Origin: a virus
IMG/VR virus record: IMGVR_UViG_3300042469_000164
Span: 1 to 26,124 of that record
Length of the DNA stretch: 26,124 bases
Strand: one strand, 5' to 3'
Part shown: positions 1,338-25,931 of the stretch, in pieces
How positions within the stretch are numbered: the first letter of the stretch is position 1
Layout: every line of letters begins with the position of its first letter
Program-made: the position numbers and the translations under genes
Notes under the pieces: generated by a model
What the model was told of the DNA's origin: nothing
Database searches by the model: none
The model's input: the letters and a program-made list of their open reading frames with translations, nothing else

Positions 1338-1724
1338 CTATAGTTTATTAAGTCTGCTACCGACGAATACATCTACTCCAATATCTGCTGAATTATAATG
1401 ATTACCACTAATACCATTGATATGTCGTGGCATAAAGTTCAAAAACAGTAGAAAAGTTTTCAGTATATCGTAGTCTTCCTTATCAATCTTAAAGAACAAC
1501 ATTCTAGCAGAGGGTTCAATTCCAAACACATTTGATAGAACGATAATGTGGTTGAGTATCAATCTTTCCTTTAGCTCACCCGTAGTCTTGTATCTTTTGA
1601 TAAGTCTCTTTACATACTTAATTCTACTTAAGTCTTCCTCAAATTCACTCATTATACAATTTGGTCTATCGTAGGCTTTCATTGCATAAATGATAAAGTT
1701 ATCATCATTTAAGTTTTCAATCAT
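1338..1724 (-). CDS. Conserved T4-like phage protein of unknown function
   Basis: 128 residues. It starts MIENLNDDNFIIYAMKAYD and contains ERLILNHIIVLSNVFGIE; this pattern (LNDDNF ... LILNH ... VFGI) recurs in T4-like marine phages as a small protein of unknown function, from memory. It is mostly helical in appearance, with no signal peptide or membrane segment. Its ATG overlaps the stop of the upstream 219-residue gene (ATGA), so it is probably made with that protein. Confidence 0.7.
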   Translation of the reverse strand: MIENLNDDNFIIYAMKAYDRPNCIMSEFEEDLSRIKYVKRLIKRYKTTGELKERLILNHIIVLSNVFGIEPSARMLFFKIDKEDYDILKTFLLFLNFMPRHINGISGNHYNSADIGVDVFVGSRLNKL

Positions 1725-2380
1725 TTATTCTTTTTTGCCATTGCCTTTTTAACTAGTTTAGCCACATCAATACTTTCATTTTTTGGCACACAATTAGGAA
1801 CTTTACGGCCGCCCTTCTTCTTCATACCAATCATCTCATAGTTATCCCAGCAAGGATCTTTGTCTTCTTTTAGATCATTGCCAGCCTTGTATGAATCAAA
1901 TGAATCTTCGGCATCGGCCTCATCGCCGTCTGATGTTTCTCCATCTTCCATTTCAGATTCCATATCATCTAAAATTTCTTGGAGTTCACTCTCTTCCACG
2001 ATCTCACAGAAGATATCAAATGAACCTCTATCATTCATTTGATACTCAAAGTATACGTAATATGGATCATAGTTCTTTACAACTACTGTTCCATCATTTG
2101 TCATACCCATCTTGTTTCCAAACTGACTGATTGGAAAAACTTCATGACCCGAATCCCCATCTAAGAAATTTGTCTGAGGTGGAAATATACTGAATGGTGC
2201 TAAAACCTTGCGAACCATTTCCAAAGCGTGGTATGGAGTCGCATGTGGTCTAGCAGTTACGGACGCTAGATGAATGTTAATGTTATCTCTAACAGGTCCA
2301 TTATCTACGCCTACAAAGCCCTTCTCGGTTTGAGCAAAGGGCATCATCTCTTCACTGAGAAATTCTTTAAATTTCTTCAT
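1721..2380 (-). CDS. Conserved phage protein with CW-type motif
   Basis: 219 residues. The N-terminal 120 residues form a mixed-fold domain (PHATPYHALEMVRKVLAPF, YVYFEYQMNDRGSFDIFCEI). Then follows an acidic linker (about residues 130-165, Asp/Glu-rich) and a motif DPCWDNYEMIGMKKKGGRKVPNCVP, ending in a Lys-rich tail. The same cysteine motif occurs in the 1046-residue protein at 5252-8392, so it may be a shared packaging or scaffold-related tag, but that is inference. It overlaps the next gene by 4 nt. Confidence 0.65.
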   Translation of the reverse strand: MKKFKEFLSEEMMPFAQTEKGFVGVDNGPVRDNINIHLASVTARPHATPYHALEMVRKVLAPFSIFPPQTNFLDGDSGHEVFPISQFGNKMGMTNDGTVVVKNYDPYYVYFEYQMNDRGSFDIFCEIVEESELQEILDDMESEMEDGETSDGDEADAEDSFDSYKAGNDLKEDKDPCWDNYEMIGMKKKGGRKVPNCVPKNESIDVAKLVKKAMAKKNK

Positions 2381-2921: not shown

Positions 2922-4250
2922 TTACTTCTCCTTGATTTCTTTGATATTTGTTGAATTTCTAGCGGAAAAAGTAGTATCTTTTGGATTTACTGTAACTTTT
3001 TCGGTTTTCTTGCCTGTTTGACCTGTTTCAGTTGGTCCTAAATCTTCTTCATCTTGTTCACCCATAGTGATAGTGTTACGTCCATAAACATTTTGATTGC
3101 CTCGCATTTTCTGACCTTCACTTCTCTTTACTAGTGCTTTGCCACCAAGATATCCTTTACCTTGTTGACCACCTTTGACTAAAGGTCCGTGAGCTTCCGC
3201 TACAGATTTTTTACGATGAGCATATTGATTAGGACTACCAGAATCCTGTTTGCCTTCAGGATGAACAGGATCAAAAGGTCCTGGTTTACCAATTATTTCC
3301 AAAAGTTTTTTCTCTCTGATCTGCTTTACTATTTCGGCAAGTTGTTTGTTATTCATTACACCTTCTTTTAGTTGAGATGATCCAATTGGTCGCTTAGAAT
3401 TTGCGGCATTTCTTGTAACTTTTCCTGTTTTAACTCCAAGACCGATAAGCTTTTTGTTTGAATTGCCTCTTTCAACCTGTCTATTCTGTTGCGCTCTTTG
3501 TGCGGGAGTCATGTTATTCTGTGTTCCAGCACTCTGAGATTTTCCAGCAGGTTTAACAATAACATTTGGCTTTTGAACAACACCTGGTTTTTTTGTCTGT
3601 GTTTGTGAAGCTGTTGTTGCAGGTTTAGGCGTAGGCTTTGGTGGTGTTCCTGGTTTAACAGGTACAGTACCGCCAGCAGCGTTTGGATTTCCAGTAGCTG
3701 TAACAGAAGGTGTCTGAGCGGCTTTGTAATTACCGCCGGCAGCACCACCAATGTTTGGATTCGTCGCTCTTGCCATTGGAGATTGAGTTGTAGGTTGATC
3801 TAAAGCAGAATCTCTTTTAGTATCTAAAGCAGGTGGATTCTGTCTCATTTTATTGAGACGATAATCGCGACCTACTTCTGGACGAGCACCTTGGGTTTGA
3901 TCAATAGGAGATCCTGCCATACCTTTATTAGGATAGACAGGACTCTTTGGTATAGTTCTATCAAGCGTTGGAGTTTTACCTGGTGCAGCAGGTCTAGATA
4001 CTACACCGCCCGTTGATCCTACATTAAAATTTTGACCAGCTTTCATCGCAGCTTGAGGAGATATAAAACCGCCAGGAGGTGGTCTATTTGGACCAGAAGT
4101 TTGAGTTGGCGCAGAGGCTGCTGGTTTAACAGGTGCAGCCTGAGCTGCACCTGATCCTGCGGCTTTCTTTTGCATTGCCTGAACAAATCCTCCAGACGCG
4201 CCGCCAGCCTCTTTTAAAGTTTTATATGTTTCTATAAGACTTTTTGCCAT
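2922..4250 (-). CDS. Ala/Pro/Gly-rich putative scaffold or virion protein
   Basis: 442 residues from the ATG at 4250 (MAKSLIETYKTLKEAGG); an in-frame ATG at 4274 would overlap the upstream gene by 20 bases, and AGAAGATAAG precedes the 4250 start. Most of the protein is low-complexity Pro/Ala/Gly/Gln/Thr, likely disordered. A shorter ordered helix (NNKQLAEIVKQIREKKLLEII) lies near residue 300, followed by FDPVHPEGKQDSGSP. The N-terminal GGFVQAMQKKA is repeated in the upstream gene product (GGFVQAMQKTA). Function unknown; a prohead-core or internal virion role would fit the composition. Confidence 0.65.
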   Translation of the reverse strand: MAKSLIETYKTLKEAGGASGGFVQAMQKKAAGSGAAQAAPVKPAASAPTQTSGPNRPPPGGFISPQAAMKAGQNFNVGSTGGVVSRPAAPGKTPTLDRTIPKSPVYPNKGMAGSPIDQTQGARPEVGRDYRLNKMRQNPPALDTKRDSALDQPTTQSPMARATNPNIGGAAGGNYKAAQTPSVTATGNPNAAGGTVPVKPGTPPKPTPKPATTASQTQTKKPGVVQKPNVIVKPAGKSQSAGTQNNMTPAQRAQQNRQVERGNSNKKLIGLGVKTGKVTRNAANSKRPIGSSQLKEGVMNNKQLAEIVKQIREKKLLEIIGKPGPFDPVHPEGKQDSGSPNQYAHRKKSVAEAHGPLVKGGQQGKGYLGGKALVKRSEGQKMRGNQNVYGRNTITMGEQDEEDLGPTETGQTGKKTEKVTVNPKDTTFSARNSTNIKEIKEK

Positions 4251-5251: not shown

Positions 5252-8200
5252 TTACCACTTTACTTTGTTGGCCCAATATGCTGCGGACTTTGGACCTTTA
5301 GCAATGTTCTTTGCATGGCGAGTTTTAAATCTTTTATTACGATCTGTTCCATCTGGTGAACCTTGTACACCAGCTTGACCAAAACGAATAACTTTTTCTT
5401 TACCATCAAAACAAGCTTTGACTACGTGTGATTTACCATTATGACTGTCAGCACGAGGCGCGTTACATTTCATTTTGGCTTTGTCTACATTTTCTTCTAT
5501 CTGTTTTTCTTTCATAGCCTGTGCTGTAGCAATACTAAACTTCTTTTTGTCAGAATATTCAGGATTTTCTCTTTTTATAGCGTCAGCAATTTCATTTCTC
5601 TTTTTAATTTGTGCTTTAGACATTACTTCTTCAGCCTGAACAGGAACACTGCCTGGTTTTTCGCCTTCTTTTTCTGTAGGATCTTTACCAGATGAAGCGG
5701 CAGCAAATGCCATTTCTTTGATCTTTTTCAAAGATTTCTTTGATTCAGATGGCATATTGCCACAACCACATGCTTCAAGCTTTAATGCAGCCTCAATAAG
5801 TTTTTCTTCAGCAAGATTGCCATACTTATCGGCAAACTTCTGTTGTGTTTTTGGATTTAATGCCCATTCTTGAATAGACTGTGTTGCTTCATATACAGAG
5901 TTACCCACGTTAGCAAAGCCCATATAGAAACCTGGCGCTTTAGAAACATTAACTTCTTGTCCTAAACCATTACCAATTGGTAATCCACCGCGTGGAATGT
6001 TATTGTCTTCTTGAGCTAACTTCTTTCTAACAGCTTTAATTTTCTTATTTTCTGATACACAGTTTTGACCAGGAGTCATAGACTTATAAATTTGAGCTAA
6101 AGAATCCGTACCAATCTCTCTATTCGATGGTTTTTCCATGTACTTTTCAAATGTCTTATCCATTTCACTTACTGGTACACATTTATCTTTATTGTTCTTA
6201 GTGCCAGCATAACGATAACCTTTCCAGCAGGCTTTACCATCAATACCTTTTTTCTTTTCTTCGTTCATGTTTTGAACCCTTACTAGTTTACCACCTTTGC
6301 TGTGGAATAATACCTTGTTTTCGTTTCCTACTTTGCGACCAAATCTACCAAATCCATAGTATGATAGTCCAAGCTTTCTTGCTTGTGCCATCAACTCATT
6401 ATCTGGTTTATGGACAACGTTTGGAATTTCTTGACGAACCTGTGTGAGAGTTTTATTTGCTCTTGGTTCTTGATATGTGATGCCGCGCTTCTGCGCTTCT
6501 TTTTCAATCCATGCTTTTGCTGCTGGATTTTGATTATCGGCGCGAACAAACTGTTGTGCCATGCGACGAACACGATTGAAGTTTGTTTGAATCTTTTCTT
6601 TTTCTTCAGGAGATACTTTACGAACATCGGCAGTATTATCTACAACCGCAAACTTTTCATTACCAAAAATCTTTTGTAACTCACCAATATTCTTTTGTGC
6701 TAGATCCCACTTCTCTTGACGAATATCGGAAGAGTTGTCTGGCATACCTTGCTTATCAGTGCCATCTGGAACTTTACGCTTACCTAGTTTGCCGCGTTCA
6801 ACATTACGCTCACGCGATACATCGTTTGATGTGTTTACGAATACCATCATAGTTTCGTAACCATCAGCCTCGAGATTTCTCTTAACTGTTTTAATCTTTT
6901 CTAAATCGTCTGCGGTGCCATTAATGATAAGCCCTAGACGGCCTGAAAGAGCTAGTCTTTCTTGTTCTTTGGTAATGTTCTTCGCGCGACCGCGCACGAT
7001 ATCACGCTCAACTCTTTCTTCATCTGGCATTTCAAGATCAAGACCATTCTTTTGCATTAGATATTCAAAAGCAACATCCGAATTGACTTCTCTTAGACCT
7101 TCACCGCGAAGAACGGAATTCATTACGAAATCTTTACCTGAACCAGGACCGCCAGCTAAGAAGATAGCTTTTAATTTGCCTGGATCATTTATACCTTCTT
7201 GAAGATTTTTTTTCTTATATTCATCAGCAGTCTCATCATCTTTCCAATCACCTTCACCTGTATCTAAAATGTGAGTCTTATTAACCTTCTTCATGCTATC
7301 GGTATCTTTTATGTTCTGTAAAAGATATTGTGATGTTACTGTAGGAGAGACTTCACCTGTTACATATCCCATACCTCTTATGTCACCACCAGAAGCATGA
7401 TTTAGAGCATGATCTTCTATGATATGTTCTTTAGCAAACATATCTGGATTAGATTTCGCAAACCAACGCATGATCTTACCTGCTTCGGCATTGGCCTCAT
7501 TCTCTATATCCGAACCAGTAGAACCTTCCTTGGCAATGTCTTTGCCAAGTTTACCGTCTTCATTTTGTTTGTGATGTACCAATTCATGTGCGATAGAACG
7601 AAACACATCCATTGGATGTCTGTTCTTTGTTGAAATGGATAGTTCATTCTTTGAGGGATTATATGCTGCGAAAGAGTTGTAATCGTCTTCATCACTCTTA
7701 TATCTAACACCAGGTAAAGATTTGATACCAAGTTTCTTAGACGCAAACGACAAAAAAGAATCAAGCATTGGTGCCAGTTCTTTGCGTGTTACTTCTTCAT
7801 TTAAGGAGTGATGTTTGCGGATTTGATTGAATACCTTACGAACATGACTTTCAGGCATGCCTGGATGATATGCTTTAAAATGTTCGTAGTTGCCTTCTTT
7901 GGCCAACTTTTCAAGTTTGGAAGCAGATACAGAACTTGTTAGCTCTGCGCGACTCATCTTGCGAGGATCTTTGTCGCTTTCTGTGCGTTCACCACCAGCA
8001 GCATGTACTTGCCAGCTTTTAAAATGGAATGGAATATTGCCCTTCTTGTCTTTATTGCCATTATACTTTTGTAGGAAATTCCTGTATTCCTCAACGCGAT
8101 CTGAACCCGCGACAAGGTGTAAATGATCATGGTGCTTATTGAGATGTGATAAGAAAGCAGGTAAAGTCTTGGTATGCTCGGTGCCTGTATCAACAGGATG

Positions 8201-8392
8201 ACCGAATACTTTTTCTGCGTGGGATTTCTTGGTTTTGATATCAAGTGGTTCGGCTGTACCAGAAAGACCTATTGACAGTTTACCGCTTGTCTTGGTTGCT
8301 ATATCTTTAGCTTGATCAATAGCTGCTTTGTGACCGATAGTAGGTATACGTACCTTGCCATAGAAGGCAACACCTGTAGTTTTCTTTTTCAT
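5252..8392 (-). CDS. Multidomain nucleotidyltransferase / Zn-peptidase / P-loop kinase protein
   Basis: 1046 residues, apparently several modules on one chain. Residues 1-190: a cytidylyltransferase-like domain (GKVRIPTIGHKAAI with an HxGH-type PTIGH, and SSVSASKLEKL near 155). Residues 205-330: a metallopeptidase-like domain with HELVHH at 269-274 and an ENEANAEA stretch that may give the third ligand. Residues 405-590: a P-loop kinase-like domain with Walker A GGPGSGKD at 414-421. Residues 715-745: the CWKGYRYAGTK ... CVPV motif. Residues 980-1046: a small basic domain ending YWANKVKW. The ribosome site GAGGGAAG sits partly in a hairpin. A virion-associated or internal multi-enzyme role is possible but unproven; the frame is open throughout. 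Confidence 0.75.
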   Translation of the reverse strand: MKKKTTGVAFYGKVRIPTIGHKAAIDQAKDIATKTSGKLSIGLSGTAEPLDIKTKKSHAEKVFGHPVDTGTEHTKTLPAFLSHLNKHHDHLHLVAGSDRVEEYRNFLQKYNGNKDKKGNIPFHFKSWQVHAAGGERTESDKDPRKMSRAELTSSVSASKLEKLAKEGNYEHFKAYHPGMPESHVRKVFNQIRKHHSLNEEVTRKELAPMLDSFLSFASKKLGIKSLPGVRYKSDEDDYNSFAAYNPSKNELSISTKNRHPMDVFRSIAHELVHHKQNEDGKLGKDIAKEGSTGSDIENEANAEAGKIMRWFAKSNPDMFAKEHIIEDHALNHASGGDIRGMGYVTGEVSPTVTSQYLLQNIKDTDSMKKVNKTHILDTGEGDWKDDETADEYKKKNLQEGINDPGKLKAIFLAGGPGSGKDFVMNSVLRGEGLREVNSDVAFEYLMQKNGLDLEMPDEERVERDIVRGRAKNITKEQERLALSGRLGLIINGTADDLEKIKTVKRNLEADGYETMMVFVNTSNDVSRERNVERGKLGKRKVPDGTDKQGMPDNSSDIRQEKWDLAQKNIGELQKIFGNEKFAVVDNTADVRKVSPEEKEKIQTNFNRVRRMAQQFVRADNQNPAAKAWIEKEAQKRGITYQEPRANKTLTQVRQEIPNVVHKPDNELMAQARKLGLSYYGFGRFGRKVGNENKVLFHSKGGKLVRVQNMNEEKKKGIDGKACWKGYRYAGTKNNKDKCVPVSEMDKTFEKYMEKPSNREIGTDSLAQIYKSMTPGQNCVSENKKIKAVRKKLAQEDNNIPRGGLPIGNGLGQEVNVSKAPGFYMGFANVGNSVYEATQSIQEWALNPKTQQKFADKYGNLAEEKLIEAALKLEACGCGNMPSESKKSLKKIKEMAFAAASSGKDPTEKEGEKPGSVPVQAEEVMSKAQIKKRNEIADAIKRENPEYSDKKKFSIATAQAMKEKQIEENVDKAKMKCNAPRADSHNGKSHVVKACFDGKEKVIRFGQAGVQGSPDGTDRNKRFKTRHAKNIAKGPKSAAYWANKVKW

Positions 8393-8399
8393 TACTTCC

Positions 8400-8425
8400 C
8401 TCTATAGGAATGTTAATCTATAGAG
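8400..8425 (-). promoter_or_regulatory. Hairpin next to the ribosome site of the 1046-residue gene
   Basis: CTCTATAG and CTATAGAG form a perfect 8-bp stem around a 10-base loop. Its downstream arm ends in AG, the first bases of the GAGGGAAG ribosome site of the gene starting at 8392. Folding could limit ribosome access. No T-run follows, so it is not a typical terminator. Confidence 0.35.
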
Positions 8426-8439
8426 TTATTTAGTAAACT

Positions 8440-9126
8440 TTAACTTTCGTAGAGTTTACGCACTCTTGTCGATTTGGCAACTGAAATAATACCTTCGGCC
8501 AGTGCTTTCTTAGGTAAATACTTGCTCACTTTACCATCTTTTACAAGATATCCAACAGCTTCTACATCAGGATACATCGCAGCTACTTTGAATAGCATAT
8601 CCAGATTCTTTTCATGGTCATCCCACATACGAATACGATCCCACTTACCTTTGGCCAGATACTTCTTTAGAATAACACCCTTATTGATATGTGCTGGTGA
8701 GCTTGGCTTTAACTTTGATAGATTGCCAGAACGTTCAACATATACATGATCGATAGGGAATCCATGATCACGAAATGCTTCTAAGAACTCTTTGTGATCA
8801 TCAAAATCTGCTCGGGCAGTAATGATAATTGAATGAGAATTTTCTGACTGATTCCATACGATACTTTTGGCCTTATCCAGAACATTGCTGATGGGCTTAA
8901 ATGTTTCACGAAAGATTTTACCAGAACGAAACTGAGAAAAATCTAACTCTTCACCTTTTTCAAGCTTATATGAATTAAACTCACCAGGGGAAAGATATTT
9001 AATAACTTTGCCATTCTTTTTGATGTTTACTTTCGCAGAGGTTTTACCTAAAGTATCATCGATGTCCCAAACGTTTAAAGTCCGAACTTCTTTTTTATGC
9101 TCTTTTAGATAATCATTCAGTTTCAT
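8440..9126 (-). CDS. HAD-superfamily phosphatase
   Basis: 228 residues from the ATG at 9126, which overlaps the upstream stop as ATGA; the longer reading frame needs a TTG start. HAD motifs are clear: motif I VWDIDDT (D21, D23), motif II IIITARAD, a motif III lysine in HINKGVILKKYL, and motif IV MWDDHEKN. Such enzymes remove phosphates from small molecules or nucleic-acid 3' ends (compare the phosphatase half of T4 polynucleotide kinase). The neighbouring upstream gene has a ligase-like KxDG motif, so a nucleic-acid end-processing pair is conceivable; substrate is unknown. Confidence 0.8.
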   Translation of the reverse strand: MKLNDYLKEHKKEVRTLNVWDIDDTLGKTSAKVNIKKNGKVIKYLSPGEFNSYKLEKGEELDFSQFRSGKIFRETFKPISNVLDKAKSIVWNQSENSHSIIITARADFDDHKEFLEAFRDHGFPIDHVYVERSGNLSKLKPSSPAHINKGVILKKYLAKGKWDRIRMWDDHEKNLDMLFKVAAMYPDVEAVGYLVKDGKVSKYLPKKALAEGIISVAKSTRVRKLYES

Positions 9127-10358
9127 TTTGACCAATTCTTTGTGGCATTAAAGTTTGCCTGTGAAAATTCCAGTCTATCTATCAGTTTGACTGCTTTACC
9201 GATCTTGTCAATGGCAACAAATCCTTCAGGAGATGTTACTCTTAATCCAGTGGAATCTGTTCTGAGATATGTTCCGACTGTGTCCTGAACTTCTTGTAGT
9301 TTCTTGACTATCATATTTTTAGCACGAACCAGGATGTTTTGCAAGTCAAAAATCTTCTTTAGCTCATTTTTATTTGACTTATAGAAGTCCATGACGAGCT
9401 TCTTTTCCATTTGTCGCTTCTGTTTTGTATCTGCTTTCTTAGCTTCTAATATAGACTTGTTTAATTTTTCCTCTACACTGGAAATAAGACCAGCAACATG
9501 AGTAGCGGTGTTTGTAATTTCTTTTCCTTCACGAACCTTCAGATTGTTCCACGCTTTAATCGTAACCTTATATGTGTCATTTGTAGCAATCGTATTTAAC
9601 GTCCGAGGAGATATTGTTCTAAACAATGAACCAGCTTGTGATAGAATGGCGTTCAAAGCATCCGTCTCTTGCTTGGTAAATGTAGCAGTGCCAGAGGCAT
9701 CAACAAATGAAGCATCACGATACCAAACATTCTTTGATACCTTCATGCTACCAATATCAGCACCAAAAGATGCTTTCATATCGGCCATTGTATCACCATT
9801 ATATGTTGTGTGCCAAACAATACCCATCTTCGCAGATTTTATAGACTTAGCCAAAGCAGTATTATCAGGAACAGCGTAAACAATAGTATTAGGCTGGAAT
9901 GTAACATAAGAACTTCCATCAATCTTTTCCGTTTTAAGATCGGCAGACGTAAACATCATATCACCCTGCATCACACCTTTTATGCCAAGTTCTGGCAAAT
10001 AACGTAGAGCGACTTTTAGTTTGTCATTTAGTCCTTTACCAGGATAACTAGCATCAATGTCAGCATTTGTATAATTGAGCTTTGCGTTTTGAGCAAAAAT
10101 TCCTTTCGTACCAACAAAGAACTTGCCGTTCTCTGGATTGATACCAGCAAAGATGGCAGGTGCACCATCCCACTTTGTTGTTAAGTTCACTGACTTACCA
10201 GTAGCGTGACCAGCAAGCATATCACGAAGAGACTGTAGAAAGGATATTGCACCTCTTGTTCCAGTAACTCCTCCATTGAGTACTTCGTCCTCCAAGTGTT
10301 CTAGATGAAGGTTTTTACCTTCTTTTGATTCTGTTAAATAGTTTTGATACTGTAACAT
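9123..10358 (-). CDS. KWDG-motif conserved phage protein (nucleotidyltransferase-like?)
   Basis: 411 residues. Residues 60-90 read TTKWDGAPAIFAGI ... FFVGTKGIF; K62-W-D-G65 has the KxDG form of the adenylated lysine in DNA/RNA ligases, followed by an FxxxKGxF strand. Later blocks are GVMQGDMMF (128-136), NTIVYAVP and MGIVWHT, spaced like ligase motifs III-V but diverged. The C-terminal third is helical and Lys-rich. I recall this as a conserved protein family of T4-like cyanophages without assigned function. It overlaps the HAD phosphatase gene by 4 nt. The ligase relationship is inference from motif shape. Confidence 0.7.
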   Translation of the reverse strand: MLQYQNYLTESKEGKNLHLEHLEDEVLNGGVTGTRGAISFLQSLRDMLAGHATGKSVNLTTKWDGAPAIFAGINPENGKFFVGTKGIFAQNAKLNYTNADIDASYPGKGLNDKLKVALRYLPELGIKGVMQGDMMFTSADLKTEKIDGSSYVTFQPNTIVYAVPDNTALAKSIKSAKMGIVWHTTYNGDTMADMKASFGADIGSMKVSKNVWYRDASFVDASGTATFTKQETDALNAILSQAGSLFRTISPRTLNTIATNDTYKVTIKAWNNLKVREGKEITNTATHVAGLISSVEEKLNKSILEAKKADTKQKRQMEKKLVMDFYKSNKNELKKIFDLQNILVRAKNMIVKKLQEVQDTVGTYLRTDSTGLRVTSPEGFVAIDKIGKAVKLIDRLEFSQANFNATKNWSK

Positions 10359-16284: not shown

Positions 16285-16607
16285 TAATAAGGTGAGGTGG
16301 GATTCGGGTACACCCACAAGTCACGGCCCAGATACCTGTTCAACGCGACAGCCTAGATTTTCTTGGTCGGAAACGACACGTCTTCTACTCTCGTAGATCA
16401 CGCGCGGGCACCACACCATCTAGCCAAGTTAGCCGGTCTTTGCGTCCAGCCATTTCCTTGCACTCGACCGATTCCCGTCGGAATCGGCATTTAAATTGGA
16501 GGCCCGTTAGCGGTTACTGCGATCAGTGATTCCTTATGGAAGGGTCAAGGCAGGAACTTACACCCCGAGGATTTATATACCGTCACGGGCCAACGACGGT
16601 TCTTTAT
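16285..16607 (-). ncRNA. Candidate structured RNA, about 320 nt, no ORF
   Basis: No coding frame is found in this stretch. Helices seen by eye: a 7-bp closing stem GGCCCGT/ACGGGCC (16585-16591 with 16501-16507) followed by TCCA like a tRNA acceptor end; an 8-bp hairpin CCGATTCC/GGAATCGG (16468-16487); CTAC-GAGA-GTAG (16385-16396); GTCG-TTTC-CGAC (16366-16377); and two crossing pairings (16353-16358 with 16418-16423, and 16362-16366 with 16424-16428) that would form a pseudoknot. It does not fit a tRNA, tmRNA, RNase P RNA or group I intron by the motifs I know. Strand is inferred from the neighbours. Confidence 0.45.
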
Positions 16608-18911: not shown

Positions 18912-18987
18912 TGGTTGCGGATGTTGGATCTGCCCCAACTCCTTCGGCTTATGAGACCGACGACTTACCTTCTTTGTCCTATCCGCC
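18912..18987 (-). tRNA. Initiator-type tRNA-fMet(CAT) with unusual T-loop
   Basis: G1-A72 mismatch, A11-T24 pair in the D-stem, anticodon arm TCGGT-CTCATAA-GCCGA and end CCGCAACCA all point to initiator tRNA. The T-arm GTTGG/CCAAC encloses GGCAGAT instead of the usual TTCRANY loop, so tertiary contacts may differ. Confidence 0.8.
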
Positions 18988-20715: not shown

Positions 20716-20793
20716 TGGTCTGGGTGGAAGGATTTGAACCCTCAGTCTTCTGCTCCCAAAGCAGACGCGATAACCAGATTACGCTACACCCAG
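20716..20793 (-). tRNA. tRNA-Pro(TGG), copy 2
   Basis: Acceptor CTGGGTG/CACCCAG, A73, CCA, stem TCTGC/GCAGA around TTTGGGA (TGG, G37), T-arm GAGGG/CCTTC. Its first 15 bases overlap the end of the endonuclease VII gene, whose TAA stop is in the D-arm. Confidence 0.92.
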
Positions 20794-21099
20794 ATAACTT
20801 TTTAACTTATAGAACGGAACTTTATTTTCCATGTAACCAACGAAAGTGTTACATTGATGGCAAAGTATGCCTCTTACTGTTCCATTTTTATGGCAATGGT
20901 CAACGTTACCGCTTTTGTAACTACCACCATTAAACATCTTAACTTCTTTATCACACAAAGCACATTTGCCATTTTGACTCTCATGTAGAGTAAGAACATC
21001 ATTTCTGTTCATGTTATAGTTATACAGATTGTCCTTACAAACTCTACACGATAGGCCGCGCATGTTGTGTTCTTCTCCACAGTGTTTACAGATTTTCAT
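20779..21099 (-). CDS. Endonuclease VII-type HNH nuclease
   Basis: 106 residues. N-terminal zinc knuckles C4-x2-C7 and C18-x2-C21 precede the Endo VII core: C46-x2-C49, GNVDHCH (D67, H68, H70), TVRGILCHQCN (R76, C80, C83, N84). T4 endonuclease VII resolves branched DNA; short stand-alone versions also act as homing-type nicking enzymes in phages. An exact TATAAATA and AGGAG precede the ATG. Its position amid tRNAs suggests a mobile gene; at 106 residues it is shorter than T4 gp49 (157). The stop overlaps tRNA-Pro. Confidence 0.85.
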   Translation of the reverse strand: MKICKHCGEEHNMRGLSCRVCKDNLYNYNMNRNDVLTLHESQNGKCALCDKEVKMFNGGSYKSGNVDHCHKNGTVRGILCHQCNTFVGYMENKVPFYKLKSYLGVA

Positions 21100-21557: not shown

Positions 21558-21634
21558 TGGCTCCCTTAATAGGATTCGAACCTATAACGGCCTGATTAAC
21601 AGTCAGGTGCCGGTACCAACCCGGCTCCAAGGGA
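21558..21634 (-). tRNA. tRNA-Asn(GTT)
   Basis: Acceptor TCCCTTG/TAAGGGA, G73, CCA, stem CCTGA/TCAGG around CTGTTAA (GTT), T-arm ATAGG/CCTAT. The structured RNA upstream ends in a T-run at its 5' boundary. Confidence 0.93.
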
Positions 21635-21635
21635 A

Positions 21636-21765
21636 TAAAACTTATCACTTCCGCGACACACCAGCTAGTTTAGTTCGATAAGCTAGTATCGGACGCAGAC
21701 GTTTCGAACCAACCTGTCGTCCTGTCTGGTGTGTCTCGGAAGAGATAACTTTCGTTATCTCTAGG
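21636..21765 (-). ncRNA. Kissing-loop three-way-junction RNA with switch-like hairpins
   Basis: Helix P1 pairs 21642-21664 with 21726-21748, 21 of 23 positions by hand count. It encloses P2 (GGACGaCAG/CTGCGTCC, 21691-21722) and P3 (CTAGcTTA/TAAaCTAG, 21665-21686). The P2 loop contains GTTCGA and the P3 loop TCGAAC, exact complements able to kiss. The outer part of P1 is also an arm of a perfect 9-bp GAAA-capped hairpin (21741-21762), so the two folds exclude each other. P1 is followed by GTTTTATT right before tRNA-Asn. This looks like a switch or attenuator controlling the tRNA run. Confidence 0.6.
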
Positions 21766-21792
21766 AACTTAACAATGTAAATCAGCAAGCCG

Positions 21793-21987
21793 TTATTCTT
21801 TGAGATCACTAAAGGATCGACTACGCGGCTCCTGATTAAAAGAGCCAGTAGCAAAGACAACGGTATCATCGGGAGTTATCTCCCGTCGAGCACGAAGATC
21901 CCATCCCGGATGGATGAAATCTGGTAAACCAAACACGCGACAAGCCCGAAGGTATTCGTCGCCTTTAAACCCTACGAAGTGAAGCAT
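21793..21987 (-). CDS. Small conserved phage protein, 64 residues
   Basis: MLHFVGFKGDEYLRACRVFG, then PDFIHPGWDLRARREITPDD and VVFATGS ... EPRSRSFSD. I recall this FVGF-x-GDEY ... DFIH-x-GWD pattern as a common small phage protein of unknown function. The ATG at 21987 has AAGGAGG upstream; the longer frame lacks a ribosome site. It follows the promoter-like element at 22011-22041. Confidence 0.75.
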   Translation of the reverse strand: MLHFVGFKGDEYLRACRVFGLPDFIHPGWDLRARREITPDDTVVFATGSFNQEPRSRSFSDLKE

Positions 21988-25853: not shown

Positions 25854-25931
25854 GGAAGCGGCTGGAACGGGTGGTTTGAGGCTTGGCGTAATCGTACCAA
25901 CCGCTCTCCAGACCCGTCTCCAGCCGCTTCC
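25854..25931. repeat. Large inverted repeat
   Basis: GGAAGCGGCTGGAACGGGT (25854-25872) pairs with the sequence at 25912-25931 over 19 positions with a single bulged base, around a 39-base loop that itself contains short pairings. It lies in the non-coding stretch 25750-25965. No T-run follows on either strand, so it is not a standard terminator. Confidence 0.6.

Follow-up and report, generated by a model that had tools for sequence, protein, structure and literature searches.

The window analysed here, meaning the whole stretch of DNA and in this case a virus record of 26,124 bases, contains 28 tRNA genes identified by ARAGORN, all of which lie on the minus strand, and this strand was taken as the sense strand of the element described below. 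The element sits between a conserved leader and a tRNA-Asn gene, and the features of this region, from upstream to downstream, are as follows.

21793..21984, minus strand: ORF of 63 aa preceding the leader; a Shine-Dalgarno-like sequence was noted by eye
21764..21786, minus strand: conserved leader GCTGATTTACATTGTTAAGTTCC, upstream of the element (27 viral stretches with the core pattern)
21741..21762, minus strand: P0, a 9-bp GAAA hairpin, AGAGATAAC-GAAA-GTTATCTCT (sequence, fold energies)
21726..21748, minus strand: 5' arm of P1, the acceptor-like long helix (fold, covariation, stem scan)
21714..21722, minus strand: 5' arm of P2, the D-arm-like hairpin (one pair with a both-sided change, none broken)
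21704..21709, minus strand: GUUCGA inside the P2 loop, complementary to the loop of P3 (6/6 pairs invariant, 5 distinct sequences)
21691..21698, minus strand: 3' arm of P2 (alignment covariation count)
21679..21686, minus strand: 5' arm of P3, the T-arm-like hairpin, which abuts P1 directly on its 3' side (alignment covariation count)
21673..21678, minus strand: P3 loop, UCGAAC (alignment)
21665..21672, minus strand: 3' arm of P3 (alignment covariation count)
21642..21664, minus strand: 3' arm of P1 (fold, covariation, stem scan)
21637..21640, minus strand: TTTT (the "T-run"), not conserved (sequence, relatives)
21558..21634, minus strand: tRNA-Asn(GTT), the next gene downstream (ARAGORN and Rfam tRNA search)

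The outer helix, P1, pairs 21748-21726 with 21664-21642, and 21 of its 23 positions are paired, the mismatches being U.U and A.G. Within it, P2 pairs 21722-21714 with 21698-21691 and P3 pairs 21686-21679 with 21672-21665; UCGAAC (21678-21673) makes up the entire P3 loop and is a perfect complement of GUUCGA (21709-21704). The GAAA hairpin P0 is itself perfect and has 8 nt (21748-21741) in common with the 5' arm of P1. An earlier note, made from the sequence alone, had described a 23-position helix with 21 pairs enclosing two hairpins, perfectly complementary GTTCGA and TCGAAC loops, and an overlap of the outer helix with a perfect 9-bp GAAA hairpin, and we found the helix on the minus (RNA) strand, the complementary sequences in the loops of P2 and P3, and the overlap as described. 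The T-run that the note placed at the tRNA-Asn boundary is present as four Ts, but it is absent from the related sequences L011 and L103. A 74-aa ORF spanning the element (21645-21869) was not taken as coding because L003 carries a 1-nt deletion in it. The 63-aa ORF upstream of the leader has no PHROG match; its sequence is kept in L003, L011 and L103, and was not seen before the leader of L102.

The minus strand folds with an energy of -52.1 kcal/mol (z -6.0), and none of 200 shuffles folded as well. The plus strand, at -51.8 kcal/mol, has the better z-score (-7.2) and beats 200 of 200 shuffles. P1 is the top-scoring stem of the window in a scan for arms 30-280 nt apart; dinucleotide shuffling of the entire window reached its score of 19 once in 100 trials, and a 6-nt loop-loop match arose by chance in 0.7% of loop shuffles that preserved sizes and compositions. 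The two competing folds proposed in the earlier note were borne out by folding, as the structure with the GAAA hairpin (-50.8 kcal/mol) lies within 1.3 kcal/mol of that with the full helix. The kissing-loop junction it proposed stands with respect to the loop complement and the pair-keeping helices (see below), but in the minus-strand minimum-energy fold the complementary loop sequences pair within a nested helix instead of forming a kissing three-way junction. For the core, the nested fold has an energy of -42.2 kcal/mol versus -39.2 kcal/mol for the kissing three-way junction, the latter excluding the loop pair, whose value as a free duplex is -5.7. On the plus strand, the minimum-energy fold is the three-way junction. 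Since the inner helix of the nested fold shows no both-sided changes, and three of its pairs are unpaired in one sequence (L152, by alignment), the three-way junction is the better supported reading from sequence comparison. The minus sense of the element is supported by the direction of the tRNA genes. It is also supported by one G-U pair seen in the L004 group and three seen in L152, all four of which would become A.C if read on the plus strand, although one cue points the other way, as a P3 mismatch, C.A, would turn into G.U on the plus strand.

Seven viral stretches match a P1-core pattern. These include near-identical copies of the element in sister phages, before tRNA-Asn; ARAGORN placed tRNA-Asn 20 nt after the P1-core in six of the seven, and the seventh, L006, ends inside that tRNA, which is present in L105 from the same contig. 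L011 is a closer variant with a C-G to U-A exchange in P1, and a loop-pattern search returned one diverged copy, L152, with 85.5% identity over 83 nt (E 2e-20). In the resulting alignment of five distinct sequences, which represent only two independent occurrences of the window type, 10 of 45 pairs show both-sided changes and 94.2% of cells are paired; none of 500 shuffles scored as high, and the values exceed those of all slid versions. Because six of the ten changes sit in columns of L152's own tmRNA acceptor/CCA strand, the fair count is four, comprising two in P1, one in P2 and one in P3, so that the compensatory changes anticipated in the earlier note occur in each of the three helices. 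Of the eight substitutions that distinguish the window from L152 at paired positions of P2 and P3, every one preserves a pair or makes a new one, and the loop bases are unchanged. The loop-loop pair itself is invariant at six of six pairs in the five distinct sequences and, as it never varies, holds no covariation information.

Consistent with the statement in the same note that the sequence matched no known family, Rfam gave no match over the element at the gathering score or at E<=5. Searches of isolated phages returned no element match in 50,697 records at E<=1, and the element was found in 0 of 385 alphaproteobacterial genomes under strict filters in a search run without a positive control. 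Pattern matches in 53 bacterial contigs were taken as chance rather than as homologues, because a covariance model, R1, recovered just one, L200, at E<=5 (18 bits, E 0.5); R1 was built from L152 among others, and its score on L152 is therefore by construction. The viral pattern matches L153 and L154 were not recovered by R1, and that in L154 overlaps a C4 antisense RNA match on the opposite strand. We conclude that the element is a real structured RNA and, as far as Rfam and literature searches tell, a new family.

The diverged copy lies in a different genetic context. L152 is a 5,952-base phage fragment whose genes include PhoH and a calcineurin-like phosphoesterase, and its copy of the element is located between ...CCTCCACCA (CCA end) and GGGGGTG (5' G) of a permuted tmRNA (RF04321, 106 bits; RF01849, 61 bits). 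It thus forms the intervening segment of a permuted (two-piece) tmRNA gene, a segment that is by definition absent from the mature tmRNA (PMC11915505, excerpt), and in the fold P1 and the acceptor stem of the tmRNA form a single continuous helix that has one mismatch. The alphaproteobacterial permuted tmRNA model differs from this arrangement in that its consensus has a short unpaired linker only, unlike the stem of L152. The window record, itself a fragment, has no RF04321 match, and the copy in the window lies before tRNA-Asn and not within a tmRNA. Permuted tmRNAs scored above the cut-off in seven of 20 related records, namely four of the window clade, behind L094, L115, L122 and L147, and the more distant L042, L044 and L045. 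Together with L152 and the cultured phage DSS3P8, these seven relatives have tmRNA spans of 249-517 nt (9/9), compared with a median of 216 (182-419) for 68 hits from 76 alphaproteobacterial genomes, five of which reach at least 249. The stems of the intervening segments resemble those of the cassettes described below; for example, CAGACACACTGG...CCAGTGTGTCTTTGAT in L328 is similar to CAGACACATG...CATGTGTCTTTGAT of one cassette type before tRNA-Asn.

A pattern scan for viral permuted tmRNAs returned at least 120 stretches, and 26 of the 80 loci listed (L208-L287) were parsed as permuted, with L152 left out and with L285, L259 and L240 looking like false parses. Among the matches listed, 10 of these 26 have short linkers of 4-32 nt, and 15 have segments of at least 60 nt, nine of which carry a stem continuing the acceptor stem, one a weak stem and three none, the other two being false parses. 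The first eight of the 15 were picked for visible arms, and all eight show the acceptor-continuing stem; the remaining seven comprise one with a stem (L286), one with a weak stem (L237), three with none (L234, L277 and L278) and two that were unusable (L259 and L240). The intervening segment of the phage permuted tmRNA in L334 is occupied by a 104-aa ORF (1629-1943, minus strand) that gives a borderline HNH endonuclease match (21.1 bits versus a cut-off of 21.4). A phage stretch, L119 (5689-5870; also L120 and L121), carries what may be a circularly permuted gene for tRNA-Phe(GAA), in which an anticodon arm, T-arm and CCA half is followed by a cassette as the intervening segment and then by the acceptor and D-arm half. 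This candidate has no RF04321 match, and the rival reading of it as a degenerate ordinary tRNA scores 26.8 bits, under the threshold of 29. Permuted tRNAs have been reported in algae and an archaeon (PMC3978253, excerpt).

Roseobacter phage DSS3P8 (L354) is matched by a tmRNA of this sort (RF04321, 107 bits), for which its record lists no feature and whose intervening segment of ~106 nt has a long stem. Upstream of its tRNA genes, DSS3P8 also has a pair of long-stem structures that overlap, with one strand serving as 3' arm in the first stem and as 5' arm in the second; one of the pair includes a tRNA-like part as judged by eye. The permuted tmRNA and the long-stem RNA structures lie at 601-854 and 3026-3149. 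The window-type element was not found in the DSS3P8 genome. As this phage is cultured, on Ruegeria pomeroyi, and has similar structures, the ideas set out below are testable.

We identified the leader pattern GATTNACATTGTTAAGTTCC in 27 viral stretches, in which it is followed by 16 distinct, related downstream sequences. An outer helix of 22-25 pairs, a count that for the window type takes in four A-U pairs beyond P1, is present in 16 of 16 of these cassettes, while their interiors fall into approximately five types. The outer pairs vary together from one cassette to the next (TTATC/GATAA, TTGTC/GACAA, CTATC/GATAG). The cassettes are distributed as follows.

L002, L003, L004, L011: window cassette type
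L103, L122, L134, L144: second, tRNA-like cassette type, with conserved GTAGCTAC in the D-loop place
L115, L113: second cassette type without the exact leader
L116, L117: second cassette type as a second cassette
L094, L109, L137, L139, and L014 with a slightly different leader: cassette type with a GGTGGCCAC-hairpin and a tRNA-like part
L102, L110, L116, L117, and, with other leader spellings, L016 and L124: other cassette types

The eight sequences of the second type (L103, L113, L115, L116, L117, L122, L134 and L144) show both-sided changes in P1, the D stem and the T stem. In total, 10 of 28 pairs have both-sided changes and 95.0% of cells are paired, and none of 500 shuffles was as high on both measures; on the measure of further pair types the alignment was not above shuffles (67 of 500 as high), and only 72% of cells are paired for a short stem at the anticodon position. 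The tRNA-like part of the GGTGGCCAC-hairpin type scores 38 bits with RF00005 in L146, from the contig of L109. Some cassettes of types other than the window's precede tRNA-Pro (L134) or tRNA-Lys (L144, L113) and not tRNA-Asn, and in L113 (1075-1520) three stem-closed cassettes stand in tandem, followed by tRNA-Lys. A helix scoring at least 18 lies upstream in 16 of 29 distinct tRNA-Asn upstream regions; the 13 helix-less regions include four clade members (L101, L113, L114 and L127), and L113 has no helix directly before tRNA-Asn yet has three before tRNA-Lys. A GAAA hairpin overlaps the stem in seven of the 16 distinct leader cassettes, being bulged in L134. Eight of the nine GAAA-less cassettes have no perfect hairpin of at least 6 bp over the 5' arm of the helix, and the ninth, L102, has one unrelated small hairpin there. 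The tRNA-Lys and tRNA-Pro contexts, the varied interiors and the presence of the GAAA hairpin in seven of 16 cassettes point to a site for cassettes rather than to a regulator of tRNA-Asn.

The leader itself may be related to a known element of ribosomal operons. A boxA consensus and a processing stalk are known features of rrn leaders, and a leader-like sequence, TGCTCTTTGACATTGTG / AGCTGTTTGACATCG, was seen by eye upstream of 16S in two of eight alphaproteobacterial leaders. On this basis, GCTGATTTACATTGTTAAGTTCC would resemble the alphaproteobacterial rrn boxA leader.

Our preferred explanation for these observations, which we hold tentatively and which may well prove wrong, is that they reflect exchangeable tRNA-shaped RNA cassettes, carried both in the leaders of phage tRNA arrays and in tmRNA intervening segments, whose long stem serves as a processing site. 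What the analysis shows directly is that the element folds and is conserved, that the stem length is constant, that sites are shared and that cassettes are exchanged. The element could be described as a tRNA shape minus the anticodon arm, in which P1 would be an over-long acceptor stem, P2 would take the place of the D-arm and P3 that of the T-arm, so that the loops of P2 and P3 would pair where the D- and T-loops of a tRNA meet (the elbow). P1 and P2 are separated by 3 nt, while P3 and P1 are separated by 0 nt, as are the T-arm and acceptor stem of tRNA. For the window type, which has no match to a tRNA model in Rfam at the gathering score or at E<=5, this likeness would be one of topology and not of homology.

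In the mechanism that we envisage, in which we infer transcription, boxA function, cutting by RNase III and a further role of the released RNA, this phage group would keep cassettes near the head of its tRNA run, behind the boxA-like leader, and in permuted tmRNA genes of phages the same kind of cassette would make up the intervening segment. The stem of ~22 bp would close during transcription and create a double-strand processing site, for which host RNase III would be the obvious enzyme. The cut would part the inner RNA from both the leader and the tRNA array, or one tmRNA piece from the other, and the inner RNA would be released as a stable tRNA-shaped RNA. An RNase III processing stem requires a helix of about two turns, and all 16 cassettes have 22-25 pairs. 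Given this constant two-turn stem, its covariation, the boxA-like leader and the segment that is cut out of tmRNA, the long stem probably functions as a double-strand processing site, whose cleavage would release both the inner RNA and the array, although the length of the stem could alternatively be kept for stability alone. We assumed the host enzyme because no RNase III (PF14622) was found in 14 related phage records. A broader version, in which cassettes are interchangeable between tRNA-array leaders, permuted tmRNAs and the apparent permuted tRNA-Phe genes of L119-L121, and are released on processing as functional tRNA mimics, seems to us rather doubtful.

Other accounts assign the function to the inner RNA or to none. 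The inner RNA may imitate a tRNA or act as a decoy, directed for instance at a defence nuclease that cuts tRNAs, at an enzyme that modifies them or at a protein of the Ro60/Rsr type, while P1 would be only an end-closing stem as in Y RNAs; we regard this proposal as unlikely. Several cassette types do have tRNA-like folds lacking the usual anticodon arm, the inner tRNA-like part of one type reaches the above-mentioned RF00005 score (L146), and the Y RNA layout of a long terminal stem plus a tRNA-like domain is similar, as bacterial Y RNA/YrlA (RF02553) also has its ends joined by a long stem and a tRNA-like body. However, the inner domains are so different that a single common target is hard to see, and there is no TROVE/Rsr gene in 12 related phage records, in a search whose control was positive. 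The YrlA matches obtained, of 26-28 bits where the threshold is 69, fell on ordinary tRNA stretches, and none covers the element, so Y RNA/YrlA was rejected as its identity. It is less probable still that the cassettes are neutral or selfish passengers, where any insert that joins its own ends is tolerated in leaders and tmRNA segments and is spread by recombination or homing endonucleases. The occurrence of one cassette type at different sites and in different phages would be expected of passengers, and the borderline HNH match in the tmRNA segment of L334 and an endonuclease VII gene within the window's tRNA array (20779-21099) are in keeping with it. Against this, at 85% identity the window type has kept its loops and junction almost intact, and its helix changes preserve pairing, which makes the inner fold look selected.

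The earlier note had likened the architecture to that of riboswitches and attenuators, a reading that was not supported. As an account of the window, it would have the junction bind a ligand, with the choice between the GAAA hairpin and P1 deciding termination before tRNA-Asn. The purine riboswitch topology consists of P1 with P2 and P3 of similar length in a three-way junction with kissing loops, and the element shares this layout; the two folds within 1.3 kcal/mol of each other, the overlapping GAAA hairpin where it occurs, and the overlapping stems of DSS3P8 would also suit a switch. A predicted glutamine riboswitch lies in the ssrA gene of phage Melnitz, which has a two-piece tmRNA (PMC9004378, excerpt), and is alike as a compact aptamer-like RNA tied to a phage two-piece tmRNA. 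It is a different RNA family, and the glnA riboswitch had no match in Rfam-type searches of the window and its relatives. In contrast to purine riboswitches, the element has a P1 of 21 pairs, no Rfam match up to E 5, and no regulated gene start or conserved terminator. No conserved expression platform, whether terminator or sequestered start, was found, unrelated inner RNAs replace the element at the same place, and the copy inside the tmRNA precursor of L152 has no tRNA-Asn or start codon to switch. With the GAAA hairpin missing from nine of 16 cassettes and no conservation of the T-run, the element is unlikely to act as a terminator/antiterminator or as a switch for tRNA-Asn, and we consider this the least probable of the explanations by some distance.

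Published work on permuted or two-piece tmRNA, phage tRNA clusters, permuted tRNA, decoys and YrlA yielded no such cassettes in open-library listings, and the element, which is conserved, folded and real, appears to be undescribed. One published case, a permuted tmRNA with an intact tRNA-Ala gene in its intervening sequence (PMC11915505, excerpt), is similar in having a tRNA-like body within that segment, but differs in that the body is an intact tRNA gene and not a tRNA-shaped RNA lacking the anticodon arm. Our comparison joins two loci between which we saw no link in the literature searched, namely the leader region ahead of tRNA runs in phages and the segment that two-piece tmRNA precursors discard. 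If tRNA-shaped cassettes are released and kept, phage tRNA arrays would also make tRNA-shaped RNAs that are not tRNAs, which would bear on why phages carry these arrays and on tRNA-targeting defence. If the cassettes provide processing stems only, they still suggest how long phage tRNA transcripts are opened.

Several other features of the window were noted during this analysis. The tRNA array contains a manA RNA (16289-16485, minus strand; RF01745, 58.1 bits), an RNA that occurs in cyanophages (PMC2864571, excerpt), and the endonuclease VII gene mentioned above (minus strand), which matches PHROG 423 and others as well as Pfam PF02945 (60.7 bits). A weak tRNA of 35.5 bits without an ARAGORN call lies beside tRNA-His (18915-18987, minus strand), and a 14-bp inverted repeat with a 50-nt interior is found at 25854-25931. 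Finally, a 1046-aa protein (5252-9135, minus strand) matches cytidyltransferase/ATPase PHROGs and has a Zeta-toxin kinase domain; its gene adjoins a polynucleotide-kinase-like gene, and the two are possible RNA-repair genes beside the tRNA array.
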